A DNA stretch of 35,851 nt, taken from assembly GCA_026706445.1 (NCBI GenBank), contig JAPOYT010000179.1, positions 1 through 35,851 on the forward strand, read 5' to 3'. Below, one piece after another: positions 398-21,125 of the stretch. The notes beneath the pieces are model-generated. The model had not been told where the DNA came from. It did not search any database and saw only the letters and a list, made by a program, of their open reading frames with translations. Within the stretch, counting starts at the first letter, position 1, and every line of letters starts with the position of its first letter. Source of the DNA: Chloroflexota bacterium (lineage in GTDB: Bacteria > Chloroflexota > Anaerolineae > Aggregatilineales > Phototrophicaceae). A program made the position numbers and the translations under genes.

Positions 398-1573
398 ATG
401 ACAGTAACCGTCGCCGAGCCTAATCGGAAACTCAGAATCCTCATCGTTCTTCTCTACTACCATCCGCATTCCACGGGCTTGACCCACTACGTTCGGATGC
501 TGGCGGAGGCGCTTGTGAGCCGCGGACACGCAGTTACCGTGGTCGCTTCCGCTCATGATCGAGAACTTCCACCCGGCGAATCCACACTCAATGGCGTCCG
601 CGTTGTGCGGCTGTGGGCGCCTATCGCGCTCAGCCGGGGTCGGATCATGCCAAGCTATCCTTGGGCAATCAACAAACTGCTTCGTGAGCACGATATTGTA
701 AACATTCACATTCCACTGCTGGAAACGGCGCTGGTTGCTTTTCTGGCGGGCATCGCCGGCGTTCAGGTAATTCCAACGCATCACGGTGATCTGATCTTGC
801 CCAAGAGTCCCATCAACGACATCATCACGAGAATCATGTTCGCCTTCTACAAATACATGGCAAAACGAGCGCCCTGCATCATTGGCTTAAGCGACGACTA
901 TGCCGACAACTCGTACTATTTGCTGCCCTTTCGCGACAAAGTCAGCATCATCTATCCACCGATGGTGATTCCAGAACCCGACCCGGCCGGCGCCCAAAAG
1001 CTGCGCGAACAACTTCAAATCGACGGCGGTCCTCTCATTGGGTACGTTGGCCGATTTGTGCAAGAGAAGCGACCAGACCTTTTGATACGATCGTTGGACG
1101 TGATCAATGAACGCTACCCGAGCGCTCGGATCGTTTTCGCTGGTGACTACGAAATCAGCTATGAGGGAACGTGGCAGCGCCATCAGGATCTTGTCGCAAA
1201 TTACAAGTCGCAGCTCCTCTTCCTCGGTCTCATCCGAGACAAGCAAGAACTGGCGAACTTTTACGCCGCCTGCGATGTGATCGTCATGCCAAGCGACAGC
1301 GACTGTTTCCCGCTGGTGCAAGGCGAAGCCATGCTATGCGGCACCCCTGTTGTGATGACAGATATCGCTGGAGGACGCGTGGCCGTGACCGTCACCGGCA
1401 TGGGCAAGCTGGCCAGACCGGGCGACTCTCGCTCGATCGGAGAAACAACGCTGGCAGTCTTGGACGATCCCGAACGGTACACGAAGCCGCGTGAATACAT
1501 CCGCAGCATCTTCTCGTTTGAAGAAACTGTAAACCGTTACGAGTCGATTCTCCACGAACACGCCAAGAAGTGA
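398..1573 (+). CDS. GT4-family (GT-B fold) glycosyltransferase
   Basis: This 391-aa protein is a retaining glycosyltransferase of the GT4 type that would move a sugar from a nucleotide-sugar to a lipid-linked or glycan acceptor on the cytoplasmic side. The N-terminal Rossmann half starts with RILIVLLYYHPHSTGLTHYV (about residues 13-32). The C-terminal half starts with IGYVGRFVQEKRPDLLI (about 214-230) and ends with the donor-binding block MPSDSDCFPLVQGEAMLCG. The first acidic residue of the usual E-x7-E motif is Asp302, with Glu310 second, so the protein has D-x7-E. No strong Shine-Dalgarno precedes the ATG, but the next in-frame Met would remove the N-terminal glycine/histidine region. It is followed 49 nt later by a methyltransferase in the same direction and is probably the first gene of the surface-glycan cluster. 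The sugar and acceptor cannot be told from sequence. Confidence 0.9.
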   Translation: MTVTVAEPNRKLRILIVLLYYHPHSTGLTHYVRMLAEALVSRGHAVTVVASAHDRELPPGESTLNGVRVVRLWAPIALSRGRIMPSYPWAINKLLREHDIVNIHIPLLETALVAFLAGIAGVQVIPTHHGDLILPKSPINDIITRIMFAFYKYMAKRAPCIIGLSDDYADNSYYLLPFRDKVSIIYPPMVIPEPDPAGAQKLREQLQIDGGPLIGYVGRFVQEKRPDLLIRSLDVINERYPSARIVFAGDYEISYEGTWQRHQDLVANYKSQLLFLGLIRDKQELANFYAACDVIVMPSDSDCFPLVQGEAMLCGTPVVMTDIAGGRVAVTVTGMGKLARPGDSRSIGETTLAVLDDPERYTKPREYIRSIFSFEETVNRYESILHEHAKK

Positions 1574-1622
1574 CGACCGCGGGAAGCGGCGCGAATCGCA
1601 GCCGAGCCAACCGGGAGCAGCA

Positions 1623-2471
1623 ATGGTCGATCCGGACTCAATCGAATACATGACCCGCAACGAAGCAGACATGGCTTTCAAACGGCGGGTCAAGACCATC
1701 TTCGACTTCGTAAATCCCCACGGGGAGATGCGCATCCTTGATCTTCCTTGCGGGCGCGGCTTTTATCTCAACATGTTTCAATATGTTAGCAATTGCGAGC
1801 TGGTTGGCGCCGACCTGGATTGGCGCGTGGTCAAGACCGCCCGTCAGGTCTTGGGCCATCTGGCCAAGGTACACATTCATCATGCCAGCATCTATTCAAT
1901 GCCCTATCCGCGCGATTGTTTTGACGCCGTCATACTCTCGGAGATTATCGAACATATCGACGATGATATCCGCGGACTCAAGGAAGCCTATCGCGTACTG
2001 AAGCCGGGCGGCGTACTGGTGGTTACTGTACCCAACGCAAATTACCCCTTTTGGTGGGATCCTATCAACAAGACCCTGGAAAGGCTGCTCAATCGGCACA
2101 TTCAGCGCGGTCCGCTCGCCGGCATTTGGGCGAACCATGTCCGGCTTTATACACCTGGAGAATTGCGCGCCTCGGTGGAAGAAGCCGGATTCGAGGTTGA
2201 AGAGGAGCGAGCCATGACGCGCCACTGTTTCCCATTTAGCCATAACCTGGTATATGGATTTGGCAAACCACTCCTCGAATCCGGAATCCTGTCCAAATCA
2301 ATGCAATCAGTTGCCGATAGGCATGACTTCGACACGAACGGCGCAAGGTTAAATCCAATTAAGTTAGGCGTTGCGCTTTTCAACGCGTTTGACCGCAAGA
2401 ATGGCGCCAGTGAGCCGCCGGAAATAGCGACGGTGAACCTCGCTCTAAAGGGGCGAAAACCTAATGCCTAG
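1623..2471 (+). CDS. Class I SAM-dependent methyltransferase
   Basis: This 282-aa protein has the Rossmann-type methyltransferase fold of the Methyltransf_11 group. Motif I is ILDLPCGRGFYLNMF (about residues 38-52), an acidic residue follows in VGADLDWRV, motif post-I is MPYPRDCFDAVILSEIIEHI, and LKPGGVLVVTVPN is the motif III strand. It would transfer a methyl group from S-adenosylmethionine. The aromatic-rich stretch after motif III (NYPFWWDPINKTLERLL) is common in methyltransferases found beside glycosyltransferases, where the substrate is a sugar or lipid carrier; that substrate is an inference. GGGAG at 1613-1617 lies 5 nt before the ATG. The last 8 nt overlap the start of the next gene, which implies translational coupling. 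Confidence 0.88.
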   Translation: MVDPDSIEYMTRNEADMAFKRRVKTIFDFVNPHGEMRILDLPCGRGFYLNMFQYVSNCELVGADLDWRVVKTARQVLGHLAKVHIHHASIYSMPYPRDCFDAVILSEIIEHIDDDIRGLKEAYRVLKPGGVLVVTVPNANYPFWWDPINKTLERLLNRHIQRGPLAGIWANHVRLYTPGELRASVEEAGFEVEEERAMTRHCFPFSHNLVYGFGKPLLESGILSKSMQSVADRHDFDTNGARLNPIKLGVALFNAFDRKNGASEPPEIATVNLALKGRKPNA

Positions 2472-5235
2472 CAACCAGTCCGAAGACCAGCCTGACCCGC
2501 AAGATGCCGGAGACTTCGTCGTTGGCGGCGCATCTTCACCTGCGCCTTCCGCCCCTGAGACGGATGTAGATGCAGCTGGCATGGAAGCCGCCAGCCAGCA
2601 CGGCGAGGGCGCGAATTCCAGTATGTCGCGGCCGATCGACGATCTGTTGCTGAGCGAACTTATCAGCCGCTGGCTCATTGCGCCCCGCACAACCTGGCGC
2701 AGCCTGCGGATGCTGGCGAGGCGATATCCGGCCCGGAACAGGACCAGTGATCGCGCGTCGTATTCAACGCTATCGCTGGCCTTAGCCGAATCGCGGACGT
2801 CCAATGGCGGCGCCTTGGCATCGCTTAGCGCCTTGCCGAATAAGCTGCGACAGCTCGGCGCCATGCAATTGCTGCTTTGTGGCATAGCGGTCGTTTGCGC
2901 CATAAGTGGCAGCGTCATCGCGCGCGGGACCGATACTGTGTCTCGCGCTGGCGGTTACTCGCTGAGTGTTGCCGCGCCATATCTGTGGTTGGGCTTTCTC
3001 ATTTGGCTCGGCGCGGAAACATTGGGAAACTGGACGCAACTGCGCGGCCGTTGGCGAAGGCTTAATCCAGTCGCGCGCTTGCGCTGGGCGGCACGAGCTA
3101 TATGCGTCGCAATCTGGCTCGTCGCCTTGTTCACTTTAACCGCGTCAATGACGGCGCCGCGTGAACGCGCTACCGAGCTTGCGCTATCGGCATTGGGCTA
3201 TTTCGCGGCCGGCAGTCTCGCCTGGATAGTAATTGAAATTGTTTATTGGCGGGCGCGAAAACAGGCCGGTACGCTCAACGGCGCGGCGTCGAATGTTTTG
3301 GAGCGTCAGCCCATACGCCTTCCCATTGCTGCGGACATCAGTCCACTGCGAAAACTAATGGTTGCGTTTGCGGGCTTGTGCAGCCTCGTCGTATGGATGA
3401 ATACAACCGGCAATCGCATTGAGCCGCCCATTGTTCTGTTGTGGTTGGCGAGCGCCGCGCTCTGGGGCTTTGTCTTCGCTCCGCTGCGCTGGAATGTTTT
3501 CGATTGGGCGAGCGGCCGCCTAGACGCCATGCGGCGACTTCGCTGGCGCGACCATCGCTCGGCGATCATTGCCTTCGCGCTGATTATGATGCTCGGCGCA
3601 GCCTTCCGCTTCAACATGCTGGACGCTTATCCGCCACAGATGTACAGCGATCTGGTCGAAAAGATCCAAGATGCCTACAAGATCTACTCCTTCGACGACT
3701 ATCGCATCTTTTTCGAAAACATCGGCGGCCGAGAACCCCTTCACTTTTACCTCCTTTCCATTTTGGCGAGCCAGCCGGGTATGGAATTCAATCACTTTGC
3801 GCTCAAGCTGATGTCGGCGCTTGAGAGCATGATCACATTGCCAATTGTCTTCTGGCTGGGCGTCGAGGTCGCGGGAAAACGCCGCCGCGAGATCGGCCTG
3901 CTCCTGGGATTGCTGGCCGCCGGATTTGTAGCCGTGAGCTTCTGGCATGCGGCAATTGGCCGGCAAGGTATGCGCATTAGCCTCGCGCCTTTGTTCTCCG
4001 CGCTGACTGCGGTCTACCTCGTACGCGCGCTGCGCGGTAATCAGCGGCCCGATTACGTAAAAGCTGGATTAGCCCTTGGCTTCGGTTTGCTCGGGTATCA
4101 AGCCGTTCGCATGCTGCCGCTCGCGGCTGTCGGCGGCGTGCTAATCGCGGGCGCGCTCGCGGGCAAAACAATGCGCGCGCGGCTAAGTTATCTGCTAAAT
4201 CTGGCCGTTCTGGCTTTTGTCGCGTTTATGGTTTTTCTGCCCTTGTTTCACTACTGGATGGAAGAACCGGAAAATTATATGCGCCGTACCAATACGCGCA
4301 TATTTGGCGATCTGCCAACCACGGACGCAGAACGCGCGTCTTTTGTCATGGAGAGCGTTCCTGTCCTGCTCAACAATATCAGAAAGACCGCTCTTGTCTT
4401 TCACTTTTTCGGCGACAGCAGTTGGGTCAGCGGCCTCAGTAGCGAGCCGGCGATGGATCCGGTGACCGCCGGCTTCATGACGCTCGGCATTGCCGCTTGG
4501 CTGGCGCTTATCTTAAAGACTCGCGATCCAACCATTGTCTTCGTGCCCGTTTACCTAATTGCCACGCTATTGCCGACGGCGCTTGCGCTCTCGTTTCCGA
4601 TTGAAGTGCCCAGCTTTATCCGCGCGAGCGGCGCTATTCCGCCGAGTTATCTGATTGCGGCGCTTCCCGTTGCGGTATTTTGCTTGCGTCTGTGTAAGAC
4701 AACCTCGGGGCGTTTCGGGCACGCGCTCGCCGCCCTGTTTGCGGCAGCTGTGCTTCTCGCGGCCAATCACTACAATACAAGCTTGTACTTTGGCGAATTC
4801 ACCGACAATTACAGACGCGCGTCACATCCGCAAGCGCAAGCTGGCAAGCTGCTGAAAGGGTTCGCCGAGAGCGATGGCGCCTTCGGCAATGCCTTTATTC
4901 TGGCGTCTCCTCACTGGTGGGACATCCGCGCTATCGGTATCGAGGCGGGCCTGATGTATTGGGACAGCGGCGGAGATGTTGCAATCGTGCCACAATTGCT
5001 GAGCCGCGGCTTGCGGAGAGACGGGCGGTTTCGCCTCGATCCTGAGCGGGACTTGCTGTTCTTTTACGCTCGGGACGATATGGATGCGCTGCCGCTACTT
5101 AGCGAGTGGTTCCCCGCCGGGAGGCAAATGGAGATCAGGGTGCAGCCGGCGCACAAGTCATTTTATATTTTCCGCGCGCCCGGCTTGGGAGCGGATGGTT
5201 TGCAGCGATTTCTTGAAGAGAATGCGCCGGCATAA
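2464..5235 (+). CDS. Polytopic GT-C (PMT/ArnT-like, GT39/GT83-type) glycosyltransferase
   Basis: This 923-aa membrane protein resembles enzymes that transfer a sugar from a polyprenyl-phosphate donor on the outer face of the membrane. Residues 1 to about 130 are a hydrophilic, Ser/Pro/acid-rich cytoplasmic tail. Several predicted membrane helices follow (about 138-360), then the ArnT-like core from about residue 370. In the core, the first outer loop has YPPQMYSDLVEKIQDAYKIY, with Asp396 and Glu399 as candidate catalytic or metal-binding acids, followed by GREPLHFYLLSILAS and an HAAIGRQGMRI segment. The last 130 residues form a soluble extracytoplasmic tail. It overlaps the methyltransferase by 8 nt. 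The N-terminal extra helices and tail are longer than in plain ArnT (about 550 aa). The substrate is unknown. Confidence 0.8.
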   Translation: MPSNQSEDQPDPQDAGDFVVGGASSPAPSAPETDVDAAGMEAASQHGEGANSSMSRPIDDLLLSELISRWLIAPRTTWRSLRMLARRYPARNRTSDRASYSTLSLALAESRTSNGGALASLSALPNKLRQLGAMQLLLCGIAVVCAISGSVIARGTDTVSRAGGYSLSVAAPYLWLGFLIWLGAETLGNWTQLRGRWRRLNPVARLRWAARAICVAIWLVALFTLTASMTAPRERATELALSALGYFAAGSLAWIVIEIVYWRARKQAGTLNGAASNVLERQPIRLPIAADISPLRKLMVAFAGLCSLVVWMNTTGNRIEPPIVLLWLASAALWGFVFAPLRWNVFDWASGRLDAMRRLRWRDHRSAIIAFALIMMLGAAFRFNMLDAYPPQMYSDLVEKIQDAYKIYSFDDYRIFFENIGGREPLHFYLLSILASQPGMEFNHFALKLMSALESMITLPIVFWLGVEVAGKRRREIGLLLGLLAAGFVAVSFWHAAIGRQGMRISLAPLFSALTAVYLVRALRGNQRPDYVKAGLALGFGLLGYQAVRMLPLAAVGGVLIAGALAGKTMRARLSYLLNLAVLAFVAFMVFLPLFHYWMEEPENYMRRTNTRIFGDLPTTDAERASFVMESVPVLLNNIRKTALVFHFFGDSSWVSGLSSEPAMDPVTAGFMTLGIAAWLALILKTRDPTIVFVPVYLIATLLPTALALSFPIEVPSFIRASGAIPPSYLIAALPVAVFCLRLCKTTSGRFGHALAALFAAAVLLAANHYNTSLYFGEFTDNYRRASHPQAQAGKLLKGFAESDGAFGNAFILASPHWWDIRAIGIEAGLMYWDSGGDVAIVPQLLSRGLRRDGRFRLDPERDLLFFYARDDMDALPLLSEWFPAGRQMEIRVQPAHKSFYIFRAPGLGADGLQRFLEENAPA

Positions 5236-5305: not shown

Positions 5306-8300
5306 ATGCGGAAGAAGGTTTTGGCTGCATTTCTTCTCGTCTCCATTCTCATCTACGGCGGAGCTCTGCGCTTCGTCGGTCAAAACTGGGACGACTTTTC
5401 CCATACGCATCCCGACGAGCTGTTTCTGACGCTGCTCGTCCTGCCGAATCTCGGCGGCCGCAATACATTTACCGCGGACGAAGCGCGCTTTCCCGAACAG
5501 TTAATTCTGGTTCCGCGCGATTCGACCGGCGCGCGCAGCCTTGACGACATTCTCAACCAGCCAGTAATTCAGTTGGGCGCCGTCCGCGATACCTTAGCGG
5601 CGGAAGCCAGCCGCTGGCTTGTACAGGAGGAGCGCATCCATGTCTTTGACGATTCCGGATCGGCGATCGACGCTTTGCTTGCGCGCCACATTGACGCCTT
5701 GCTAGTTGGCCGATTTCTGGTTCCCGACTTGGACACAGTCTCGGTCGTGGAATCGCTGTCTTCTGCGGATCTTCAGGACTTGCGCTGCCGCCATTACCAT
5801 CCCGCTTCTGCCGGCGTCGGCGGATACTTTGACACGCGCTGCTCGCCTCTGAATCCCCATAACGCCGGGCACGGCCTCTACGTTTACGGTACGTTTCCGC
5901 TGCTATTGGCGCGCTTCGGCAGCGAATTTGTCCGCAGCGCAGTCGAAGCGGAATTGCCGTTCTTTGATTATCAGGGCGGCCATTTGGTCTGGCGCGGATT
6001 CTCGACGATATTCGACATCCTAAGCATTCTTGTTGTTTTCGCTATCGGCGCGCGCATCCAAAATCGGTGGGTGGGTCTGATGGCGGCCGCCTTCTACGCC
6101 GCCGCCCCGCTTGCCATTCAGAAGGCGCACTTCGGCACCGTCAACGCAATCGCGTCTTTCTTCGTCATTCTGGCGCTTTATTGTGCCGTGAGGGCGCAGC
6201 AACGCGGACGGCTGCCGCTCTACTTCTTTTTCGGAATCGCTTGCGGAACGGCGGTCGCCTGCCGCATCAACCTCGCTCCGCTGGCCGGCGTGATCGTCGT
6301 ATCCGCAGCATTTCAGGCTATGCCGGCCTTTGACTCGCATCTCAGCCGAAGTCAGCGCCAGTCTATTCTCGTCCATCAGCTGGCGGGCTTGCTCTTGGCC
6401 GGCATTGGCGCCTTTCTCGCTTTTCGCATCTTTAATCCTTATGCCTTTAACGGGCCAGGTGTATTCGGATTGTTGCCGAACGAACGCTGGATCGCCAACC
6501 TGGCTGCGGCCGGTCGCGGCGCGACCGGTCTTCCGGATTCCCCGCCAAACTGGCAATGGGTGGCGCGCTCGCCTTTTGTCTATATCTCGCGGGATCTGCT
6601 CTTTTGGGGCATGGGCTTGAGCTTCGGCGTACTCGGCTGGTTTGGCTGGGCTTGGTCGGCTTATCGTATTTTGCGCAATCGACCGCGAGCGACCGAAAAT
6701 CTGGCGCTGATCGTCTGGATCGGCGGCTACATGCTATGGATGGGTCGTCTCTGGCCCATGACCATGCGTTATTTTTTGCCCCTTTATGGCGCTTTGGCGG
6801 TGATGGCGGGCTGGGGCCTTTTTGAATTGTACCGTTGCGCCCGAAACAACAGGGCTAGCTATTCGATGGCATCCTGGCTGCTAGTCAGTTTTGGATTGGC
6901 ATTCGCCGCAATAGGCGGTTATCAGGTCGTCAATGGCCTTGGCGACGCTACGGCGATTAGCGCGCTGGTCTTGGCGATTGCGCTATTTCTAAGCGCAATT
7001 CTGCCGCAGACGCGGAAGTATCGGCCGACGATTCTGGCGGCCTTCGCCTTGGGATTCGCGCTGCTATGGGGATTAATGTTCTCCAATATCTATCGCCACC
7101 AAACGACGCTTGTCCAGTCATCGCGATACATTTTCGAACGCATTCCGGGCGACTTCGCGCTGGAGATTGAAGGCGCCGATGACCGGGCGCCTCTGATCAA
7201 TATCGCCTTCACTGATACTGGAGTCCCCTATCCCAACCTTGAGGGCTCGCCTTATGACCAGGCAACGGTTTACCAGGAAGAGTCGGCTCAGCGCGTTAGC
7301 TTTGTCGCGCCCGCAAGCGGCAAAGTCAATTCGGTATTGGCGCCGCATCTTGGCGATCCCTTGGATGACGACCAACTGGAAGAAGTCATCATCCGAATAT
7401 ACAAGACGGGCGAAAACGCACCGCTTGCCGAAGCGAAATTGAACAGCAATCTAACGCGTGAGAAGCATCCGCTGGGCTCGTCTTATCGCATTCCCTTCAC
7501 CGCGCCGCTTCTGGTAGAAGAGGGAGCCGGCTACGAGATTGAAGTATTCGTTGCGGCGGGCAGCGGTGATGTAATTGGTTCCGGATCCGTTGTGCTGACC
7601 GAAGGCAACTGGGACAACCGCGTCACCGGCATCAGAACCTGTAAGTTGCCGGATGGGTTGACCTTGGCCGACGATTCGCCATCCGGGCTGGTCCGTTCTG
7701 AAGATTGCGGCGGGGCGCAGGCTTTCTACCGCCTCGTCAACGCGCAAGACCAGATTATGTCCTATCCGGTGGACAATCAGGTCAAATACGATGACATTTT
7801 GCGCACGCTCGATATTGGCGACTACCTGACGATCGCCAGCAATCGCTTCTACGATTCGGAGCCACGCAATCTTATGCGCTGGCCACTGACAACGCTCTAT
7901 TACGACAAGCTCTTCGCCGGTGAGTTGGGCTACGAGTTGATCGCCGTCTTTGATGAAAGTTTCGAATTCGGTCCCTGGCGCGTCTCCGATCAGCATTTGC
8001 CCATCTATGATTCGCCGGGCTGGCTGAACGAGCTGGAAGCCGATGAAGCCTTCCACGTTTATGACCATCCCGCGGTATTCATCTTCCGCAAATCGGCGGA
8101 TTATTCGCGCGCGCTGGTGGAAGCGACGCTTGCCAAAGCCTCGTTCAAACAGGTCCACGAACTGGAGAACCGGGAAGACGAAGCGCAGTTGCTCGGCGTA
8201 TTCTACTGGACTTCACTCGACGCGGATCCGGCGCCAACGGCGCTGACCTTCCCGCCCGAGGACTATGAAAGGCAGACGGCTGGCGGAACCTGGTCAGAGC

Positions 8301-11143: not shown

Positions 11144-13881
11144 CACTGCTGCTGGACTGGCTTTCGCGCGAGGGTCATATTGTCTTCAGCTGGTGGCTTT
11201 GGATCTCGCTGGCGGGCGCCGCGGCATTTCCGCTCTGTTTAGGCCTGCTGCGCGGATTGCCGGACAAGGGCTACACGCTGGCGCGCGCGCTGGGCTTGCT
11301 GCTGGCGACATTTATCTTTTGGCTTCTCGCCAGTTTTGGCTTTCTCGACAATTCAGCCGGCAGCATCATTCTGTCTTGGCTGCTGCTTTTAATCTTTTCG
11401 CTATTGGCGTATCAGCGCTTCGCTGATGGAAACGAAATTGCAGCATGGTGGCGGGAGAACCGCGCGCTTGTCCTGGCGGCTGAATTGCTATTTGTCGTTC
11501 TGTTCTTCGGCTGGGCGTTTTTCCGCGCCCACCAAAACGGCCTCAGCGCCACCGAGAAACCGATGGAGCTGGCTTTCTTCAGCGCGGCCCAGCGAAGCGT
11601 CGCCTTTCCGCCAAATGACCCCTGGATGTCGGGATACGCCATCAGCTACTACTACATGGGTTACGTCATGTGGTCGGCGCTGGCCACACTCAGCGGCATT
11701 GGCAGCACTATCGGATTTAACTTGACAGTCGCCTCGCTCTTCGCCCTCGCCGGTTTGACGGCATTCGGCGTCGCCTACAATCTGGTTCGCTCCCGGATGC
11801 GCGCCAACGCTGATCGCGGTCCTGCGGCGGCATCAAGCCCGGCGGCCATCGCGTCTGGCTTGTTGGCTATGGCGCTGCTGGTTTTGGTCGGCAATTTCCA
11901 AATGATTTTCATCGAGGCGCCGATTCAAGCGCGCGCGGCGTCACTAGAAGATCTCGTGTTTTGGGGGCCGCAAGCCCAACCGAAGTTCAATGAGGGCGCC
12001 TATCAACAGAGGGCGGATGCCCGCGTGACACTGCATTCCTCAACCTGGGGAAATTGGTGGTGGTTCCGCTCCAGCCGCGTCATAACCGATTACGATTTGG
12101 ACGGCAAGCCGATCGGCACGCAACCCATTGATGAGTTCCCCGCCTTTAGTTTCATCCTTGGGGACAATCATCCGCATGTGCTAGCCCTTCCCTTCGCCAT
12201 GATGGGAATCGGCATGATGCTGAATTTGACGCTCAACCGACGAAGACCGACGCGAGATGAGATTCTGCTATACGGCTTGGCGGTTGGCGGCTTAACCTTC
12301 CTCAACGCCTGGGACGGCCCCATCTATCTCTGTGGCTTCGTCGGCGCCGAAGCGCTGCGGCGACTCATGAGGAGCGAATGCGGTCGGCTTGCCGGCGGAG
12401 ACTGGATTGCCCTCGCCCGCTTTAGCGCGACGCTGGCATTGATCGCGCTCATCGCTTACCTGCCGCATTTCGTCGGCTTTCGATCGCAGGCTGGCGGCCT
12501 GCTGCCGAACTTGCTGCACCCGACGCAGTTTCGCCACTTTTTTATCATGTTTGGCCCGCTGATTGCCCCGCTCGGCGCATATCTGCTGATCGAAACTTGG
12601 CGCGGGCGGCTGGCTCACCGGCTAAATTGGCGATTCGCGTTAACGGCGGCGGGGATGCTGCTGCTGACTTTGGCGGGAATCATGATTCTGCTGGGCGCTC
12701 TGATCGCCCTAAGCAATCCGAATTTGGCGGTCATAGGTAACACGGCTATTGCGGCCGAAGAATTTGGCGAGACGGCCAGCCGAATCATTCAGCGCAGGAT
12801 CGACTTTGGACTGACCTCGATCATCCTGCTCTTGGGGATCGTTATTGTATTAGCGCGGGTTTTCCCCGCGCGCGCTCAGGCGCAGGCTGGCGGGGAAGTA
12901 GCAATCACCTGGATCAAGTATCCCGGCGCCAGCGGTTTCGCGCTGCTGCTGATTGGCATGGGCCTCTTTCTTACCCTTTTCCCGGATTTTCTGTATTTGA
13001 AAGACAACTTCGGCGTTCGCATCAACACCGTCTTCAAGTTTTATTATCAGGCATGGGCTTTGTGGAGCATTGCGGCTGCATACGCTGCCTACAGCATCAT
13101 GGCCGACAGCGGCCTGCCGCGGCCGCATCCCCTGCTCCGTCTAGGATTCGCTCTTATTGTCGCGCTGAGCATGGCGGCTGGCTTGGTTTACACGGCTGAA
13201 AGCCTTTACCACAGGTCGCAAGTCGAAACGGGACGTCATCGTTTTGTCGATACACGATACTACGCCGCGCCAGCCGAATGGGAGAAGGCCGTTCGGCGCG
13301 TCGCCGAGGGACAATGGGTGGAGCCGGGCACTATACTCTTTTCAAGAGCCAGCCTGATTGAGGCGACCGAAGCGGACCTGATTCGGGCACAGCACGAGGG
13401 TATCGCGGTCTTTCAGGACGATGCGCTGACCATCGAGGAAAGGCTAAGCCTTGACGGCGCTCATGGCTTGCTGAACCCCGATGACCAAATCGCAATAGAG
13501 TGCCTGAGCGAGTTGGTCGGGCGCGCCGATGCCGTTGTCGCCGAGGCGGTTGGCGATCCCTATCGCATTGAATTCGGGCGCGTCGGCACGCTCGCGGGAA
13601 TCCCTATCGTGCTCGGCTGGGAGAATCACGAGAGGCAATGGCGTGGCAATACTTACGCGTCCATCGCCGGAACGCGCAATGCGGACATGAGGCGGCTTTA
13701 CACCGCCGCCGACATGAACGAAGTCGGTGACATCATCAAGCGATATGGCATAGACTATATCATGTACGGCGCTTCCGAGCGTCAGCGATACGGCGAGCTT
13801 GGCGAAGACAAGTTTCTCGATCAACTGCCCGTCGTCTGTCAATCCGGGCGTTCGCGCGTTTATTTCGCCCGAAATCACTAA
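11140..13881 (+). CDS. YYY-type (DUF2298) polytopic membrane protein
   Basis: This 913-aa protein is a second, free-standing copy of the YYY domain. It aligns by eye with residues 1010-1945 of the preceding protein: EKPMELAFFSAAQRS against EKPMDFAYLNGVLRS, FPPNDPWMSGYAISYYYMGY (Tyr170-172), EFPAFSFILGDNHPHVLALP (Asp342, His344, His346), FLNAWDGP, and INTVFKFYYQAW. About 16-18 membrane helices are followed from about residue 690 by a soluble tail with IPIVLGWENHERQWRG, the counterpart of the LGWNFHQRQQR segment in its neighbour. It overlaps the upstream gene by 4 nt (ATGA), so the two are likely made together. The GD-x-H-x-H motif in both copies is a candidate functional site. The activity is unknown; involvement in lipid-linked or surface glycan work is inferred from context. 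Confidence 0.85.
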   Translation: MTLLLDWLSREGHIVFSWWLWISLAGAAAFPLCLGLLRGLPDKGYTLARALGLLLATFIFWLLASFGFLDNSAGSIILSWLLLLIFSLLAYQRFADGNEIAAWWRENRALVLAAELLFVVLFFGWAFFRAHQNGLSATEKPMELAFFSAAQRSVAFPPNDPWMSGYAISYYYMGYVMWSALATLSGIGSTIGFNLTVASLFALAGLTAFGVAYNLVRSRMRANADRGPAAASSPAAIASGLLAMALLVLVGNFQMIFIEAPIQARAASLEDLVFWGPQAQPKFNEGAYQQRADARVTLHSSTWGNWWWFRSSRVITDYDLDGKPIGTQPIDEFPAFSFILGDNHPHVLALPFAMMGIGMMLNLTLNRRRPTRDEILLYGLAVGGLTFLNAWDGPIYLCGFVGAEALRRLMRSECGRLAGGDWIALARFSATLALIALIAYLPHFVGFRSQAGGLLPNLLHPTQFRHFFIMFGPLIAPLGAYLLIETWRGRLAHRLNWRFALTAAGMLLLTLAGIMILLGALIALSNPNLAVIGNTAIAAEEFGETASRIIQRRIDFGLTSIILLLGIVIVLARVFPARAQAQAGGEVAITWIKYPGASGFALLLIGMGLFLTLFPDFLYLKDNFGVRINTVFKFYYQAWALWSIAAAYAAYSIMADSGLPRPHPLLRLGFALIVALSMAAGLVYTAESLYHRSQVETGRHRFVDTRYYAAPAEWEKAVRRVAEGQWVEPGTILFSRASLIEATEADLIRAQHEGIAVFQDDALTIEERLSLDGAHGLLNPDDQIAIECLSELVGRADAVVAEAVGDPYRIEFGRVGTLAGIPIVLGWENHERQWRGNTYASIAGTRNADMRRLYTAADMNEVGDIIKRYGIDYIMYGASERQRYGELGEDKFLDQLPVVCQSGRSRVYFARNH

Positions 13882-13933: not shown

Positions 13934-15934
13934 GTGGAAGCAAACGGCGCCCTGACGCAAGCCATCCTGGAGCGAACTGATTCTCGCGACCGCGCTGCCG
14001 GCGAAGAAATCGAGGGAACTGTCTCCGTCGAAGCGCTTGCTTATATAGCCTTGGCGCTGCTGGCGCTGGCGCTCCGCATAGGCGAGCTGGACACAGTGTC
14101 ATTTACAGATTTCGAGGCGGAAGGCGCGCTGCAGGCCTGGCACACTATCGAAGACGATGCGCCCGGCGCATTTAAGGCGTCGAGCAGCCCACTGACCCAT
14201 GTGTCACAGTTGATACTGTTTTCGCTGTTGGGCGCAAGCGAATTTTCAGCGCGTCTAGGCGCGGCAATGGCCGGCGTCGCTCTCTCCCTAAGTCCACTCT
14301 TGTTCCGCGAGAGCCTGGGGCGGACGCGAACCTTTGTCTGGGCAGCATTGCTTGCGCTGCTGACGGTCCCCATCGTGTCGTCGCGCACCGCCGACGGCAC
14401 AGTATTTATGATGCTCAATACGATTCTGGCCATTTGGATGATACGGCGCTACTGGTACTCGCGGCGGTTTAGCGACGCATCTTGGGCAGTTGCCTTCCTC
14501 ACCTGCATGTTTCTTTTATCCAGTCCGTCCGGCATTCTCTTATTGGTGGTCTTGATGGGGGCTGGCTGGCTGGCTGTTTGGCGGACGGCAATAAGCGCGC
14601 CGCAACGCCTCGATCTGCCGGGCGACGATATCTTGCAACTGGCGGTGAAGCGTTTGCGTGACTTTCCAATTGCCGGCGCCGCCTTCGCGCCTGTTCTCCT
14701 GGTCGTTCTCACATCGACCGTTTTCATGCTGAATCCCGCCGGATTGAGTACGGTAAGCGAGCTTATCAACAGGGCGCTTGCCGGCATCACGCAGAGCAGC
14801 AACATTGACGGGACAAGACTCGGCTTCGTCGCCATATTTACCTATGAGCCGCTTCTGATCATCTATGCGCTGGGTGGCGCCTGGCTGCTGTGGAAGAAAG
14901 GCGATATTACCTATATCGATCGCTTCGCCGCGGCCTGGGCCGCTATCGGCGCGCTCGGCTTGCTGCTATACCCTGGCGCCCGAGCGACCGATGCGATGTG
15001 GGTCGTCGTCCCGCTTACGATGCTTGCGAGTTATGGCATCACGCAGCTGATGATAAATCGACGGGTTGTCCTGCTCTGGTCCCGGAATGACGACGACGAA
15101 AACGACAGCGCGCTCTATGCGCCGCGCTACCGCTGGGTGAAATGGGCGATATCCGCCGGCGTGTTGATGTTTTTGCTGATCCTCTCGGTGCAATTCATGC
15201 AAGTCGCCCGGCTGATGCTGCAACTTCCGACCGACACAAAATTCACTGAGTTGTTTCCACTCTTGCTCGAACCGTCACAGACGCGCCTGCTGCAAGGAAT
15301 CGCTTTGCTGATGATTACGGCTTTGGTCGCCTTTGTGGTATTTCTGCTCACCGCCAATTTCTGGGGATTGGGCACCTGCCTGCAAGGCGTCGGACTGGGC
15401 TTTCTCTGGATGATGCTACTTTCCGGCATTGGCGGCGCCTGGAACGGCTCTGTTACTTTCGCCGAGAATCGGGGCGATCTGTGGCGGCAGCGCGCAATTG
15501 CGGAAGACGCGCGCCTTTTGCGCGAAACGCTATTTGAATTGGCTGATCGCGATACTTCCGGCTTTCCCACGCTTGATGTGATCATCGTGATCGACGCGGA
15601 AGGCATCATTCGCGATGACGGGGTGGTCGCCTGGCTTATGCGTGACTTTCCCAATGCTCGCTTCGTAAAGAAAGCGGAAGCGGCGGCGCGCGCGCCAATC
15701 GTATTGACCGCGCAGAATGACGAATTGGCGATGGCTTTGGATGGCGATTATGTCGGGCAGCGATTTCTGCTGCGCCGGAATTGGTCGCTCGCCCAGTTGA
15801 ACGTCCGGAACTTGCCCGCCTGGTGGACCCTGGGCCGGTTTGAGGAAGAGAGCTTGAAGGAAGAGCGCATCGCGCTCTGGCTGCGGCAAGATGTCTATGA
15901 CGGGATTCCTATCGACCAGCGCCCTAATTATTGA
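13934..15934 (+). CDS. Polytopic GT-C (PMT_2-like) glycosyltransferase-like protein
   Basis: This 666-aa membrane protein begins with a 35-residue hydrophilic segment, then a first helix (about 36-53) and an outer-loop SFTDFEAEGALQAW, which supplies the acidic pair expected of GT-C enzymes. STTVFML-type helices and a long central hydrophobic region follow. The soluble C-terminal part (about 520-666) probably lies outside the membrane. The start is GTG; a weak TTTAGGGA lies 12 nt upstream, and no better in-frame start precedes the first helix. It is 52 nt behind the YYY gene and 66 nt ahead of the sigma-factor gene. The acidic motif is less typical than in its neighbours, so it could be a non-catalytic relative. 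Donor and acceptor are unknown. Confidence 0.7.
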   Translation: MEANGALTQAILERTDSRDRAAGEEIEGTVSVEALAYIALALLALALRIGELDTVSFTDFEAEGALQAWHTIEDDAPGAFKASSSPLTHVSQLILFSLLGASEFSARLGAAMAGVALSLSPLLFRESLGRTRTFVWAALLALLTVPIVSSRTADGTVFMMLNTILAIWMIRRYWYSRRFSDASWAVAFLTCMFLLSSPSGILLLVVLMGAGWLAVWRTAISAPQRLDLPGDDILQLAVKRLRDFPIAGAAFAPVLLVVLTSTVFMLNPAGLSTVSELINRALAGITQSSNIDGTRLGFVAIFTYEPLLIIYALGGAWLLWKKGDITYIDRFAAAWAAIGALGLLLYPGARATDAMWVVVPLTMLASYGITQLMINRRVVLLWSRNDDDENDSALYAPRYRWVKWAISAGVLMFLLILSVQFMQVARLMLQLPTDTKFTELFPLLLEPSQTRLLQGIALLMITALVAFVVFLLTANFWGLGTCLQGVGLGFLWMMLLSGIGGAWNGSVTFAENRGDLWRQRAIAEDARLLRETLFELADRDTSGFPTLDVIIVIDAEGIIRDDGVVAWLMRDFPNARFVKKAEAAARAPIVLTAQNDELAMALDGDYVGQRFLLRRNWSLAQLNVRNLPAWWTLGRFEEESLKEERIALWLRQDVYDGIPIDQRPNY

Positions 15935-15946
15935 GGATGTTCGCGG

Positions 15947-15952: not shown

Positions 15953-16000
15953 GTGTAGATGAGAGAGTGTCCATGGAGCGTCCGCCACAGGAATGCAAAC

Positions 16001-16606
16001 ATGATTGAGGACCGAAGGCAAAGCCACGCGGAAATAGACGCGATTATTGCTCGCGCCATCGCCGGTGACCAGGTAGGTTATGCCGAACTGTATGACCGAT
16101 ACGCCGCGGCGCTATACCGGCTCTGTTACAGCCTGCTGATGAATGAACAAGACGCCGAAGATATATTGCAGGAATCTTTTCTTTATGCCTTCAAGAACTT
16201 GCATCGCTTTGATTCGGGCAAGGCTTCATTGAAGACCTGGCTCTACACCATTGCAGTGAGCCGCTGCCGAAACACCTATCGGCGCAAGCAATTTTTCACG
16301 GTTGATATTTCCCAATGGCTGGGCTTGGAACTCAAAGCGCCGCCGGCTGAAGCGCCAGAGGCGGCATTGATGCGCCGCGACGCCGAGGAGTCCATCTCGC
16401 GCGCGCTGCTGGATTTGTCGCCGCGACTGCGCGAAGCGATCGTGCTTCGCTATGGACAGGGCATGACTTATCGTGAAATCTCCGAAGTGATGGGCTGTCC
16501 GCAGAAGACAGCGGAAAGCCGCGTACGTCTCGGTCATCAGCGCCTCAAGCAGTCATTGCAGCCTGTGGGCGCTGGTTTGTTGGAAGAACTCTTGCGAGTG
16601 CGCTAG
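16001..16606 (+). CDS. ECF-type RNA polymerase sigma factor
   Basis: This 201-aa protein is a group 4 (ECF) sigma factor. Region 2 spans about residues 24-95: YAELYDRYAAALYRLCYSLL, then DAEDILQESFLYAFKNLHRF for core binding and -10 recognition, then LKTWLYTIAVSRCRNTYRRK. A linker (about 100-125) leads to region 4: LLDLSPRLREAIVLRYGQG, then the helix-turn-helix MTYREISEVMGCPQKTAESRV. I chose ATG 16001 because AGGA at 15989-15992 sits 8 nt before it and because it gives the normal ECF length. An in-frame ATG at 15959 would add 14 residues and would be almost leaderless from the nearby TACAAT. The anti-sigma-like gene begins 27 nt downstream. It probably directs a small envelope-related regulon that may include the glycosyltransferase genes around it. 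Confidence 0.93.
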   Translation: MIEDRRQSHAEIDAIIARAIAGDQVGYAELYDRYAAALYRLCYSLLMNEQDAEDILQESFLYAFKNLHRFDSGKASLKTWLYTIAVSRCRNTYRRKQFFTVDISQWLGLELKAPPAEAPEAALMRRDAEESISRALLDLSPRLREAIVLRYGQGMTYREISEVMGCPQKTAESRVRLGHQRLKQSLQPVGAGLLEELLRVR

Positions 16607-16633: not shown

Positions 16634-17164
16634 ATGATTGGATTCAAGTATCGTTATTGTAAAGTGCATATGGCGCGCTATATTGGCGGCGACCTTTCGG
16701 AGGCCGCGCGCCGGCGCGTCGGACGATACATTGACGAATGCGAGGACTGCCATCGGGAGTACAGGCGCCATCGGGAATTCGCGCTGAAGCTGGAGCGCAG
16801 CCTGCCGACATTGGGGCGCCCCAATCAGCAGCGGCTGGATCAATTATGGTCATCACTTGAAAGGGAGCTTCAAAGGCCGGCTCGGAATTCAATGTGGCTC
16901 CGCGATTTCGCTTCGCCGCACAGCCTGCAATTCAGCTATGGATTGGTCATGCTGGCGATATCCATTGCCTTGCTGCTGCCAATGTTAATCGGCTTCCATT
17001 CCTCGCTGGCGCCGGTAGACTTGCCGCGCCTGCCGCATTCCATCAGCGTGGACAGGACGCCGCGTACGCGAGCCGAAAACCGACAAATCATATTTGCGAC
17101 CGCGGAGCCCAATTGTTGCGGACGCGGACCCATGTTGCAAAATACACCGGCGCCCGACCTCTGA
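16634..17164 (+). CDS. Putative zinc-finger anti-sigma factor, single membrane span
   Basis: This 176-aa protein has the layout of a ZAS-type anti-sigma factor: an N-terminal domain with Cys9, His12, GGDLSEAARRRVGRYIDECEDC (Cys36, Cys39), an amphipathic stretch to about residue 95, one membrane helix (about 101-121) and a short outer tail with a Cys161-Cys162 pair. In the family the zinc ligands are usually C...H-x3-C-x2-C. Here the expected histidine is Tyr32, so His12 may serve instead or zinc may not be bound. Its position directly after an ECF sigma gene supports the role of holding that sigma at the membrane. The ATG at 16634 is kept because a start at Met13 would remove Cys9 and His12. 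Only a distant GAGG (16617-16620) precedes it. Confidence 0.72.
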   Translation: MIGFKYRYCKVHMARYIGGDLSEAARRRVGRYIDECEDCHREYRRHREFALKLERSLPTLGRPNQQRLDQLWSSLERELQRPARNSMWLRDFASPHSLQFSYGLVMLAISIALLLPMLIGFHSSLAPVDLPRLPHSISVDRTPRTRAENRQIIFATAEPNCCGRGPMLQNTPAPDL

Positions 17165-17213
17165 GTCCACTGCGATTTCCGCGCCTGAACCGACGAAAAC
17201 TGGTCCTTGAAGC

Positions 17214-20200
17214 ATGATAACGACGCCAAATCAGCAGGAAGATAACGTCTTGGGTCGCGCGCTGTCGCTGCGCCTGCCGCTAAACCGGGAGGTAGCCGCC
17301 TACCTGGCAATTCTCCTGCTTGCGGTTTTCACGCGCTTCTACATGCTCGAAGACCGCGTCATGAGCCACGACGAAAGCTTGCACACACGGTTTTCCTACA
17401 ACTTGTATAACGAAGGAAACTTTCAGCACACGCCGTTGATGCATGGTCCGGTCCTGTTTCATGCCACCGCCCTATCATTCTACCTATTTGGCGACAGCGA
17501 TTTTTCGGGCCGCATCTACACCGCTCTCCTCGGCCTCGTCATGGTGATGTTTCCCTTGCTGCTGCGCAAATGGCTAGGACGCTGGGGCGCGCTGCTCGCC
17601 TCAGTCATGCTGCTGATCTCCCCGCTGCTGCTCTATTACAACCGTTACATTCGCCATGATACGCCGTCGATTCTTTTCGGCATGATCATGGCTTATTGCA
17701 TCCTGATGTATCTCGACGGATCGCCACGATTCCGCCGACGAGCCTGCTGGCTCTACCTGTTCTCGGCCGCCATGATTCTAAATCTGGGCTCAAAAGAGAC
17801 GGCGTTCATCTACATTGCGATATTCGGCAGCTTCCTGCTCATCTACTTTCTGGTTCGCTTGGCGCAGCGCCAGTATCGATTGCGAGGCAAGCCGATCTTC
17901 CATGCCTTCATTCTCGGAATCCTGCTCGGCGGGGTCATGACCCTGAGCATGTATATTGTCGTCGATGTCATACCGGCCGAGATCATACCCGGGCGCGGCG
18001 TCAGCTGGGGCGAGCTGTCCGACCTGGATCGCGCCAGTTGGATCAACTGGATGGCGCTTTCAGTTCTGAGCGCGGTCTTCGTGTTGGTCTCGACTGCCCT
18101 TTACGCTTTTCGCGACCGTTGGCGCCGCGTTCCTTGGCGTGAAGTCGCCCTTATTTTGCTCGTTTCATTGGTGACCGCTGGCGCTCTTCTCTTCATTGAA
18201 GAGTTGTCTCACTTCCAAACGCCGACGGAAACGGCCGAACCCGCTTTGCCCGATGCGGACACCGGCGAAAACGTGGAAGAAAACATGGGCGCGGCGATAA
18301 GATCTTCGCCCGGGCTGGCGCTCTGGCTGATTGCAATCGCGGCGGTCGCATTCCTCGTGCGCGACTGGCGGCGATCCCGCTTATCGACCGATAAGACCGC
18401 TGAAGACAAGTCTGAACCGGGCGGACTATGGCGCTACTTATATCAGTTTCCCGAAGTTGACTTAATTGTATTGATCGTCACGCTAATCTTGCCTTGGACG
18501 ACGGCGCTTTTCGTACGGCTCATGGGCGGCTCTAGCGCCGCGTATACGGGCTTGGCGAATTCGCTGCCGGAGGCGCTCTACAACCTGTTTGCCAATCTGC
18601 CAAATTTGAGCTCGCCATCGCAGATCGGACAATTCCTTGTCGGCGCCTTCGTATTTTGCCCGCTCGTTATGCTGTCTCTGGCAATCGGCTTGAGTTGGAA
18701 TTGGAAGCGCTGGCTTATTTCGGCCGCCATTTTTCATGTACTCTTCGCCTTCTTCTTCACCAGCGTGTTCACCAATATCGCCGGCTTGGGCACCGGCATG
18801 ATTTACAGCCTCGGTTATTGGCTCGAACAGCAAGGCGTGCGGCGCGGCAGTCAGCCGCAGTATTATTATCTGCTCATCATCATGCCGACTTATGAGTTCC
18901 TGCCCGTAATCGGCAGCGTTAGCGCAATGTTTGCCGGCGTAACATGCTTTTGGAAATCTCGCCGGGAACGCATCATCGCTGGCGAAGATGCAGGCCGCGA
19001 CATTGAAAGCGCCGAACTGGAAACAACCGAAGCGGTAGCGGATACGAGCGCAGAACAAGATTCAGATTCAGAATTTGACCTTGCATCGCCAAGAAACAAG
19101 GCCGAAGACAGCGGCGACGCCGAATCCATCGTTGCCGAGGAAGACAAGCTCTCTCGTCTGCCATTTGTTCTCCTGCTGGCTTGGTGGGCGATATTGAACC
19201 TCGTCGGCTATTCGCTCGCCGGGGAAAAAATGCCCTGGCTCGGCACACATTTGACCACGCCGATGATCCTCATCGCTGCCTGGTATTTTGGCGGCGTATT
19301 CTCACGCGTCAGCAAGTCGCAATTTTTGTCGCGCGGATGGCTGGCGCTGCTGCTGATGCCCGCATTCGTCATCTGTCTGGCGCAGGTCGTCGGCGCATTC
19401 ATCGCTGGCGACCCGCCCTTCGCCGGTCTGGAACAGTTTCAATTGGCGCGCGCCTACGCCTGGCTGGCTTCGCTTTTCGTCGCCGTCGGATTGGGCTACT
19501 TGCTTGCGCGCTTGGCGGGCCAGACGACCTGGATGCATATTCGCAGAATTGGCGCCGTGGCGGTCTTCAGCATTCTAAGCGTCATTACCTTCCGCGCCGC
19601 GTGGATGGCCTCGTTCGTCAACTACGATCTGGCGACCGAGTTTTTGGTTTACGCGCACGCTGCCCCGGCCGTTAAGTGGGTGCTGGACGACATTGAAGAG
19701 ATGAGCCTGCGCATGACCGACGGCAAAGATATGAGGTTCGCTTTCGACGATGAGGTCTCCTGGCCTTATAGCTGGTACTTCCGCGACTTCAACGACGCCG
19801 TGTTTGTGGGTGGCAATCCTACGGTGCAGAACATGGAAGACGCCATTTTCGTCGTGGTCGGTTCGGTGCATCGCGGCGATGTCGAACCGATCCTGGAAGA
19901 TCATTACTTGCGGCGCGACTATATACGCATGTGGTGGCCCATGCAGGAATACTTCGATTTGACGCCGCAGCGGATCTTGAACGCGCTGGACTTTTCACCC
20001 GCAAACCAGAACGCCACCGCGCTGCGTCGGGGCATCTTCGATATTTGGTGGTGGCGCGATTACGACCGATATGGCGAAGCGACTGGCAAGGACTTCTCGT
20101 TGACCAATTGGCCCGTATCCGACATCATGCATGTATACATCCGCAAGGATTTCGCCGCCAAAATCTGGGAATACGGCCTGGGCGATGGCGAAGTGCCGAG

Positions 20201-21125
20201 CAATATACCAGCCGAGATCAATCAATGCGCCGCCAATTGGCAGCCGATCAGCCCAATCCTGGAATTTGGCGCCAGCGCGCAAACGCTCACGAATCCGCTG
20301 GCGCTTTCGGCATCGGCTGGCGCGCTCTTCATCGCTGACGAACAGGCCAATTTGGCGCATGTTTATAGCTATGACGGAGAGCATGTCCGTACCCTTGGCG
20401 CTACCAGAGCCGTCGCGCTCAATCGACCGAACAGTGTGATCGCGCTTCCCGGCGGCGACCTGATGATCGTAGACACCTGGAATTACCGAATCCTTCGCAT
20501 CGACGCGGACGATAATATAGTGTCCTCATGGGGCAGCGTGGGCGAATTCGGCTTTGACGCGCCGGTCGACCCCGCTGACGGCTTCTGGGGTCCGCGCGAT
20601 GTGGCCGTTTACGATGACAATCAGGTCTTTGTCGCCGACACCGGCAACAAGCGTATTCGCGTTTATTCTCTCGATGGCGCGCAAGCAGTCCATCGCTACG
20701 ATATCGGCAGCGGCGGCAGCGGACCTGGCGAACTGGACGAGCCGAGCGGACTGGCGATTCACAGCGACGGGCGGCTATACGTCGCTGACACCTGGAATCG
20801 CCGGGTGGCCGTTTTTGACGTTAGCGGCGCGCATTTGATGAACTTCCGCGTGCGTGGCTGGTACAACACGACCTTCAACCGTCCCTATCTGGCGCTTGAT
20901 GAGGCGAGAGACGCCTTGTACATAACTGACCCGGATGGCAAGCGGATTCTGGTTTATACAACCAGTGGCGAATGTATCGGCTCTTTTGGCGAAGCGGGCG
21001 AAAGCGGCGCGAATGGGCAATTCGCCGACATCGGCGGGATCGCCGTCGACGAGGACGGATTCGTATACCTCAGCGACTCGACCGCGGGCAAGATATTCAA
21101 GTTCCCGCCCTTCCCGCTGGAGTAG
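17214..21125 (+). CDS. Agl23-like (TIGR03663-type) GT-C membrane protein fused to a C-terminal NHL beta-propeller
   Basis: This 1303-aa protein starts with an Agl23-type GT-C domain. After the first helix (about 27-43) comes VMSHDESLHTRFSYNLYNEG (49-68), with the His52-Asp53-Glu54 motif, then TPLMHGPVLFHATALSFYLF and YYNRYIRHDTPS. Further on are YWLEQQGVRRGSQPQYYYLL and the family signature LAGEKMPWLGTHLTTPMIL. Two acidic, low-complexity loops interrupt the helices (about 335-365 and 590-645). Residues about 1011-1303 form six NHL-type repeats with ADTGNKRIRVYS-like units, expected to fold as a beta-propeller outside the membrane. TIGR03663 is named after a haloarchaeal protein linked to lipid-glycan flipping in N-glycosylation; a similar role here is inference. 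It follows the anti-sigma gene by 49 nt and closes the glycan cluster. Confidence 0.87.
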   Translation: MITTPNQQEDNVLGRALSLRLPLNREVAAYLAILLLAVFTRFYMLEDRVMSHDESLHTRFSYNLYNEGNFQHTPLMHGPVLFHATALSFYLFGDSDFSGRIYTALLGLVMVMFPLLLRKWLGRWGALLASVMLLISPLLLYYNRYIRHDTPSILFGMIMAYCILMYLDGSPRFRRRACWLYLFSAAMILNLGSKETAFIYIAIFGSFLLIYFLVRLAQRQYRLRGKPIFHAFILGILLGGVMTLSMYIVVDVIPAEIIPGRGVSWGELSDLDRASWINWMALSVLSAVFVLVSTALYAFRDRWRRVPWREVALILLVSLVTAGALLFIEELSHFQTPTETAEPALPDADTGENVEENMGAAIRSSPGLALWLIAIAAVAFLVRDWRRSRLSTDKTAEDKSEPGGLWRYLYQFPEVDLIVLIVTLILPWTTALFVRLMGGSSAAYTGLANSLPEALYNLFANLPNLSSPSQIGQFLVGAFVFCPLVMLSLAIGLSWNWKRWLISAAIFHVLFAFFFTSVFTNIAGLGTGMIYSLGYWLEQQGVRRGSQPQYYYLLIIMPTYEFLPVIGSVSAMFAGVTCFWKSRRERIIAGEDAGRDIESAELETTEAVADTSAEQDSDSEFDLASPRNKAEDSGDAESIVAEEDKLSRLPFVLLLAWWAILNLVGYSLAGEKMPWLGTHLTTPMILIAAWYFGGVFSRVSKSQFLSRGWLALLLMPAFVICLAQVVGAFIAGDPPFAGLEQFQLARAYAWLASLFVAVGLGYLLARLAGQTTWMHIRRIGAVAVFSILSVITFRAAWMASFVNYDLATEFLVYAHAAPAVKWVLDDIEEMSLRMTDGKDMRFAFDDEVSWPYSWYFRDFNDAVFVGGNPTVQNMEDAIFVVVGSVHRGDVEPILEDHYLRRDYIRMWWPMQEYFDLTPQRILNALDFSPANQNATALRRGIFDIWWWRDYDRYGEATGKDFSLTNWPVSDIMHVYIRKDFAAKIWEYGLGDGEVPSNIPAEINQCAANWQPISPILEFGASAQTLTNPLALSASAGALFIADEQANLAHVYSYDGEHVRTLGATRAVALNRPNSVIALPGGDLMIVDTWNYRILRIDADDNIVSSWGSVGEFGFDAPVDPADGFWGPRDVAVYDDNQVFVADTGNKRIRVYSLDGAQAVHRYDIGSGGSGPGELDEPSGLAIHSDGRLYVADTWNRRVAVFDVSGAHLMNFRVRGWYNTTFNRPYLALDEARDALYITDPDGKRILVYTTSGECIGSFGEAGESGANGQFADIGGIAVDEDGFVYLSDSTAGKIFKFPPFPLE
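20243..21122 (+). other. Six NHL repeats (beta-propeller) within the Agl23-like protein
   Basis: I count six units of roughly 38-48 residues, each with a 'P-x-G/S-[IVL]-A' start, a strand ending in VAD or VDT, an R-[IV]-x-[VI]-[YF] strand and a GxxxxxxG-type end. Clear examples are IVDTWNYRILRID, VADTGNKRIRVYS and VADTWNRRVAVFD. A six-blade NHL propeller normally binds proteins, RNA or glycans. Confidence 0.8.

Follow-up and report, generated by a model that had tools for sequence, protein, structure and literature searches.

A conserved Chloroflexota gene cluster with paired YYY and Agl23 paralogues, probably for extracytoplasmic glycan assembly or transfer

In this report we focused on a run of genes at positions 398-21125 of a 35,851-nucleotide stretch of DNA from a Chloroflexota bacterium (assembly GCA_026706445.1, contig JAPOYT010000179.1; the whole stretch, an entire contig, is hereafter the window), which likely encodes a machine that assembles or transfers a glycan outside the cytoplasm using lipid-linked (polyprenyl-phosphate) sugars. 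This reading is supported by gene content, gene order and co-occurrence, by the GT-C-like fold of the YYY and Agl23 proteins, by an ancient split between paralogues and by a residue dichotomy that follows this split. The YYY domain (TIGR03662; DUF2298, PF10060, Chlor_Arch_YYY), for which the literature searched gives no function or enzyme activity, in line with the original prediction made for this DNA, is very probably a GT-C glycosyltransferase, as judged from its predicted fold. Of the single lipid-linked glycan pathway that had been proposed, glycan assembly or transfer stands as the best reading in view of synteny, co-occurrence and GT-C folds, which makes that proposal partly supported.

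The run consists of nine genes in a single direction on the + strand, all of those originally predicted, spaced by 24-70 bp except for two overlaps, of 8 bp between the methyltransferase and GT-C1 genes and of 4 bp between the YYY-fusion and YYY genes. Five of the products are large polytopic proteins of 666-1945 residues, again as predicted. Three GT-C-like proteins had been counted; their GT-C nature holds but their number does not, because a further GT-C module, which has an HPDE motif, makes up the N-terminal part of the YYY fusion, and YYY too resembles a GT-C protein. This gives six GT-C modules: GT-C1, the N-terminal module of the YYY fusion, two YYY domains, Agl23 and the Agl23 paralogue, GT-C2. 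The features are listed below (EL1, first external loop; EL2 to EL6, the later ones).

398-1573, + strand: cytoplasmic glycosyltransferase of family GT4, 391 residues (Pfam Glycos_transf_1, 9e-25; Glyco_transf_4, 7e-20).
1623-2471, + strand: S-adenosylmethionine methyltransferase, 282 residues, a variable member of the cluster (Methyltransf_11, 4e-18).
2464-5235, + strand: GT-C1, polytopic, 923 residues (PMT_2, 28.3 bits, over the cut-off).
5306-11143, + strand: YYY fusion, 1945 residues, an N-terminal GT-C module followed by a YYY domain.
5306-8305, + strand: N-terminal GT-C module of the YYY fusion, residues 1-1000 (PMT_2, 38 bits, over the cut-off).
5408-5419, + strand: HPDE motif, residues 35-38 of this module, its putative EL1 acidic motif (from the sequence).
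8333-11098, + strand: YYY domain (TIGR03662/DUF2298) of the fusion; its predicted EL1 contains D1131 and E1140 (TIGR03662, 9e-134; DUF2298, 2e-102).
11140-13881, + strand: single YYY protein, 913 residues, with E139 in the predicted EL1 and no partner Asp (TIGR03662, 3e-123).
13934-15934, + strand: Agl23 paralogue (Agl23-like, GT-C2), 666 residues (TIGR03663, below the cut-off).
15959-16606, + strand: extracytoplasmic function (ECF) sigma factor (TIGR02937, Sigma70_r2, Sigma70_r4_2).
16634-17164, + strand: anti-sigma-like protein with one transmembrane helix (NF052375, 1e-8, below the cut-off).
17214-21125, + strand: Agl23 protein with a C-terminal NHL domain, 1303 residues (TIGR03663, 1e-72, over the cut-off).
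17214-20213, + strand: GT-C part of Agl23, residues 1-1000 (TIGR03663; PMT_2 and PMT, over the cut-off).
20214-21122, + strand: C-terminal NHL beta-propeller fused to Agl23 (NHL, 8e-23; ScyF-like, 2e-33, below the cut-off).
21344-23347, + strand: nusA, the start of a nusA-infB-rbfA-nrnA-truB-ribF run that borders the cluster and lies outside the system (profile match).

Both YYY units are full members of TIGR03662 (447.7 and 412.9 bits against a cut-off of 300.25). An AlphaFold2 model of the 913-residue single protein, made from a 71-sequence alignment, is confident, with a predicted local distance difference test score (pLDDT) of 90.8 and a predicted TM-score (pTM) of 0.93. When this model was compared to the PDB with Foldseek, there were three matches at E<=1e-3, all of them to the tryptophan C-mannosyltransferase CeDPY19 (7zlh, 7zlg and 7zli) with a probability of 1.00, while lower-ranked matches were to AftA (probability 0.93), Pmt1/2 (0.96 and 0.72), Pmt4 (0.69) and ArnT (0.66). 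AftA, the mycobacterial arabinosyltransferase that comes next after DPY19, differs from YYY in having no sequence relation to it and in its gene neighborhood. Helices and sides were assigned from the model with the GT-C pattern as a guide, and we infer a core of 13 helices—the number of transmembrane helices in the core of CeDPY19 (PMC10154233)—plus three extra N-terminal helices that DPY19 lacks. As assigned in this way, EL1 corresponds to residues 132-188 and holds E139 as well as the DPW and YYY motifs, a long EL5 corresponds to residues 526-557, EL6 holds D622 and the invariant R627, and the C-terminal residues 697-913 make up an outer domain, an arrangement that would parallel DPY19, in which there are likewise an acidic residue in EL1, a long EL5, an arginine in EL6 and a C-terminal outer domain. 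E139, which is invariant in the 71 sequences and is predicted to lie in the outer loop that follows the first core helix, may be the counterpart of Glu71 in CeDPY19, an essential residue and the likely catalytic base (PMC10154233), and R627 that of the conserved EL6 arginine in STT3 and DPY19; both an acidic motif in EL1 and an arginine in EL6 have been described in GT-C enzymes (PMC6801728). Further conserved acids map to other predicted outer loops: E332 and D342 (EL2), D392 (edge of EL3) and D622 (EL6). Positions conserved at >=90% amount to 73/447 in the outer loops, 2/67 in the inner loops and 34/399 in the helices, i.e., in the model nearly all conserved loop residues are on a single face. 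As the GT-C pattern guided the assignment of sides, this bias represents consistency with a GT-C fold and not independent proof of it.

The Agl23 assignment leads to the same type of fold. The predicted Agl23-like protein is borne out by the 1303-residue product, a full TIGR03663 member (245.6 bits against a cut-off of 126.25) with an NHL fusion, and the same family match links it to the archaeal Agl23 of Haloarcula hispanica. The 666-residue product scores under this cut-off, at 51.4 bits, and we call it an Agl23 paralogue because of its homology to Agl23 in hhalign (2.7e-27). An AlphaFold2 model of residues 1-1000 of Agl23 (pLDDT 78.9, pTM 0.82) matched Pmt4, AglB, ArnT, oligosaccharyltransferase (OST) and Pmt1-2 in Foldseek with a probability of ~1.00, with AftD also among the matches, and ~216 of its residues could be superposed at 3.1 Å on a chain of Pmt1-Pmt2 (6p25_B). 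No credible match was found when the Agl23 profile was compared to PDB sequences. An EL1 motif, S-H-D53-E54-S-L-H, is invariant in 32 sequences. Its Asp-Glu and the modelled fold, both of which are features of Pmt1, Pmt2, Pmt4, AglB/STT3 and ArnT, indicate that Agl23 is a GT-C protein. Agl23 differs from the PMTs in that it ends in an NHL propeller where these have a MIR domain, a known feature of PMTs. This C-terminal propeller is kept in many Chloroflexota Agl23 proteins. As for the remaining GT-C modules, GT-C1 has invariant residues D396, E399 and D403 together with a GGRE(P) motif and is homologous by profile comparison (2.9e-11) to the N-terminal module of the YYY fusion, in which HPDE is found in 95/102 homologues.

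The predicted catalytic machinery would be organized in pairs, in which one partner has an acidic residue that the other does not. In a tree, YYY domains from fusions and from single proteins (92 and 107 sequences, respectively) are reciprocally monophyletic with 0 mismatches and a support of 1.0; these two exception-free clades point to an old duplication, the copies of which have been retained side by side. Nine residues ahead of the EL1 Glu, 92/92 YYY fusions have an Asp, compared to 0/93 single YYY proteins. Similarly, Asp-Glu occurs in the EL1 region of 65/71 proteins in the Agl23 group versus 10/83 in the GT-C2 group, counts that are approximate because they were made by regular expression and some sequences are mis-sorted where the groups blur in distant genomes. 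In the window, the 666-residue paralogue has lost the D of the EL1 DE motif by replacement and kept E61. These comparisons show that in each pair, YYY fusion/YYY and Agl23/Agl23-like, the extra EL1 aspartate belongs to one partner only. Since Pmt1-Pmt2 is a heterodimer of paralogues, we propose by analogy that Agl23 and its 666-residue neighbor, and likewise YYY fusion and YYY, are probably paired heteromeric subunits with the second EL1 acid in only one partner. A variation on this organization is seen in three loci (L086, L087 and L088, from genomes G158, G262 and G206) with YYY proteins of 2498-2681 residues, which have two YYY domains per chain and, together with a separate copy, three YYY units per locus.

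To determine how widely this arrangement is conserved, we mapped 40 loci, each 15-20 kb long and taken at the genus, order and phylum levels, and 80 named contigs, the latter picked by similarity to YYY and mostly from Anaerolineae; the closest YYY match among the matches listed, with 83% identity, is on a contig of 'Anaerolineae bacterium'. YYY fusion, YYY, GT-C2, GT-C1, GT4, ECF, anti-sigma and Agl23 genes are all present in 11/11 same-genus loci with their order kept, and the methyltransferase gene in 5/11. The YYY-fusion gene is upstream of YYY in 53/56 named contigs with enough flank and in 16/16 loci of the phylum sample, an Agl23-type gene is within the next two genes in 54/61 and 13/17, respectively, and GT-C1 is upstream in 42/52 and 5/15. 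From these counts, the YYY-fusion/YYY/Agl23-type core is conserved throughout the Chloroflexota, whereas the GT4/GT-C1 part is mainly a class-level feature. Since order is kept across dozens of related genomes, the arrangement is far beyond chance. Co-occurrence of the two families, which had been predicted, is seen at the genome level: strong DUF2298 matches are found in 165/251 sampled Chloroflexota genomes, and 159 of the 251 have both TIGR03662 and TIGR03663, 6 have YYY alone, 2 Agl23 alone and 84 neither (E<=1e-20, tallied by hand; the genomes are related, and these are therefore not independent events). When the cluster was tested for absent co-conservation and for a relation to unrelated transporters, what we found was strong synteny and GT-C folds for YYY and Agl23, and the cluster reading survived. 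DUF2298 is not confined to Chloroflexota and archaea, because a distant member is encoded on a Pseudobutyrivibrio plasmid (L199; NZ_CP043029.1, 70272-72527), beside genes for a GT2, an O-antigen ligase and a sugar epimerase.

The sigma/anti-sigma pair predicted inside the run is sound for its first member, which has sigma regions 2 and 4 (Sigma70_r2 and r4_2) and scores 104 bits against a TIGR02937 cut-off of 42.9. The second is a weak match (NF052375, 35.5 bits against a cut-off of 100), yet it is conserved beside the ECF gene, and this position, its single transmembrane helix and its Cys/His-rich N-terminal part (C-x2-H ... C-x2-C) would fit an anti-sigma factor. Co-conservation, originally suggested as a check for both GT4 and ECF genes, proved to hold for GT4 mainly within the class and for ECF in 50/54 loci that have both GT-C2 and Agl23 (tblastn), where it lies between the two in a gap of mostly ~1.25-1.3 kb. 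This retention speaks against the idea that the pair is a passenger in the run that exerts no control over the cluster, an idea to which we nevertheless give roughly one chance in three. The passenger status is favored by an alignment of the regions upstream of GT4, in which no shared promoter motif is visible, although this is a weak test, by four class members that have GT-C2 and Agl23 and lack the pair (L128, L149, L151 and L155), and by a tblastn search in which the pair was not found in 20 phylum-level loci. Any regulation by the pair is therefore lineage-specific. Long antisense open reading frames over the ECF/anti-sigma genes (L108:15824-16516 and similar) mask the pair when genes are called by longest open reading frame.

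From these parts we infer a model for the donor, the direction of flow, the details of transmembrane topology, the pairing into heteromers and the sigma control. GT4, together with the methyltransferase where present, would act on the cytoplasmic side to build or modify a lipid-linked glycan, which a flippase would then move across the membrane, and the six GT-C modules would extend it or hand it over to an acceptor at the outer face, with polyprenyl-phosphate sugars made by ArnC/PgfS-like GT2 enzymes encoded elsewhere in the genome as donors, while the ECF/anti-sigma pair probably tunes expression. The same genome has ArnC/PgfS-like GT2 genes, a type expected to make polyprenyl-phosphate sugars, and their presence is only permissive for the use of such donors by YYY. 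Three PF03706 genes are also present, on other contigs of this genome, and in many relatives a PF03706/TIGR00374 flippase-like gene is directly upstream of GT4 (e.g., L123:3-887, L149:1-1170 and L160:3-785). No STT3/AglB (PF02516) match in the genome is over the cut-off; the best, outside the window, has 22.4 bits against 24.5.

Several observations weigh against this model. YYY and DPY19 have low TM-scores (query, 0.25-0.34; target, 0.32-0.43; root-mean-square deviation, 13-20 Å), and across all YYY matches in Foldseek these scores reach at most 0.34 (query) and 0.46 (target); what we claim is therefore a shared topology and not close similarity. There is no detectable sequence relation between the prokaryotic YYY and DPY19 either: the YYY profile gave no credible match to PDB sequences, with no DPY19 chain among the matches, and hhalign gave no link from YYY to either Agl23 or the N-terminal module of the YYY fusion (6% and 2%). 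Weak matches of the YYY and Agl23 profiles to LMBD1, rhodopsin and triosephosphate isomerase were taken as chance. Outside the class, most of the loci sampled have no linkage of GT4 and GT-C1 to YYY. No flippase gene is in view in the window, in which GT4 is preceded by 397 bp up to the contig edge, with stops in every forward frame; this fragment (positions 1-397) has no Pfam match, and the possibility that it is a decayed flippase gene was considered and rejected. Finally, purified Agl23 from H. hispanica is reported to flip M5GN2-PP-Dol in liposomes and to rescue a yeast rft1 deletion, which is lipid flipping and not sugar transfer (PMC11182771).

The latter result, together with the NCBI family name 'flippase activity-associated protein', argues that Agl23 and its relatives are mainly flippases for lipid-linked sugars and that the cluster is in part a translocation machine. 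We find this improbable, considering the PMT/OST/ArnT-like fold of Chloroflexota Agl23, the retention of the EL1 Asp-Glu in the Agl23 group and the flippase-like gene that many relatives already have in their cluster. The archaeal protein was compared by report only and not by sequence, a search of plasmids for Agl23 having returned no archaeal sequence, and flipping in archaea and a GT-C nature in Chloroflexota could both be true. A role of the polytopic proteins in transport or as scaffolds, outside glycan synthesis, would account for their many helices and for the failure of the literature searched to report an enzyme activity for DUF2298, but we rejected this explanation on fold and consider it highly implausible, since it leaves the PMT_2/PMT domains, the EL1 acidic motifs, the invariant outer-loop residues and the GT4 neighbor unaccounted for. 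A stronger contender, with somewhat less than an even chance, is a sub-case of our preferred glycan assembly/transfer model with a different acceptor, in which the GT-C modules would polymerize or branch a cell-wall or lipid-anchored polysaccharide, similar to arabinogalactan or a lipoglycan. AftA is the best Foldseek match of YYY apart from DPY19, ArnT and AftD are among the fold matches of Agl23, many GT-C modules per locus resemble the Emb/Aft set, and the distant plasmid-borne DUF2298 gene keeps company with genes for an O-antigen ligase, a GT2 and a sugar epimerase. However, the cluster has no polymerase, ligase or attachment gene, and the top fold matches of the YYY and Agl23 families are protein glycosyltransferases. 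Analogy points both ways for the acceptor: likeness to DPY19, Pmt and AglB would favor a protein, likeness to AftA and ArnT a lipid or polysaccharide.

How much of this is new? The run had been put forward as a candidate undescribed system, which holds in part, since the names of the curated families already point to an association of YYY and Agl23; in the literature searched (TIGR03662/TIGR03663, Agl23, Chloroflexota glycosylation) there was no description of the cluster. The assignment of YYY to GT-C by predicted fold is new here, although a GT-C annotation in Pfam clan or CAZy records is possible. New are also the pairing of partners with and without the Asp, the GT-C module fused to YYY and how far the conserved cluster extends: beyond the TIGR03662 description, YYY is fused to an N-terminal GT-C module, has a separate paralogue and sits within a larger conserved set. 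More speculatively, and with the odds clearly against it in full, YYY might be a new GT-C family working as a fused/free paralogue pair in which one partner lacks the second EL1 acid, and might form with the Agl23/GT-C2 pair a general machine for surface-protein glycosylation in Chloroflexota, under ECF control in the order of the window and its neighbors. The GT-C assignment, the candidate catalytic residues, the natural pair with and without Asp and the conserved gene set make the function of DUF2298 testable, would offer a first mechanistic handle on how a large and poorly studied phylum makes its envelope glycans, and bear on the choice between flippase and glycosyltransferase for archaeal Agl23.

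There were some additional observations at the borders of the cluster. Upstream of GT4, several same-genus loci (L068, L072, L074 and L110) have a sequence that resembles part of a tRNA gene. In another Anaerolineales lineage (L163:14978-21542), the cluster is followed by genes for a cytidylate kinase, three PlsC-type acyltransferases and a large histidine kinase, which replace Agl23-NHL. Downstream in the window, the open reading frame for the NrnA-like DHH protein (25711-26880) overlaps the end of rbfA by ~190 bp as called; its match begins at residue 67, and the true start is probably further in.

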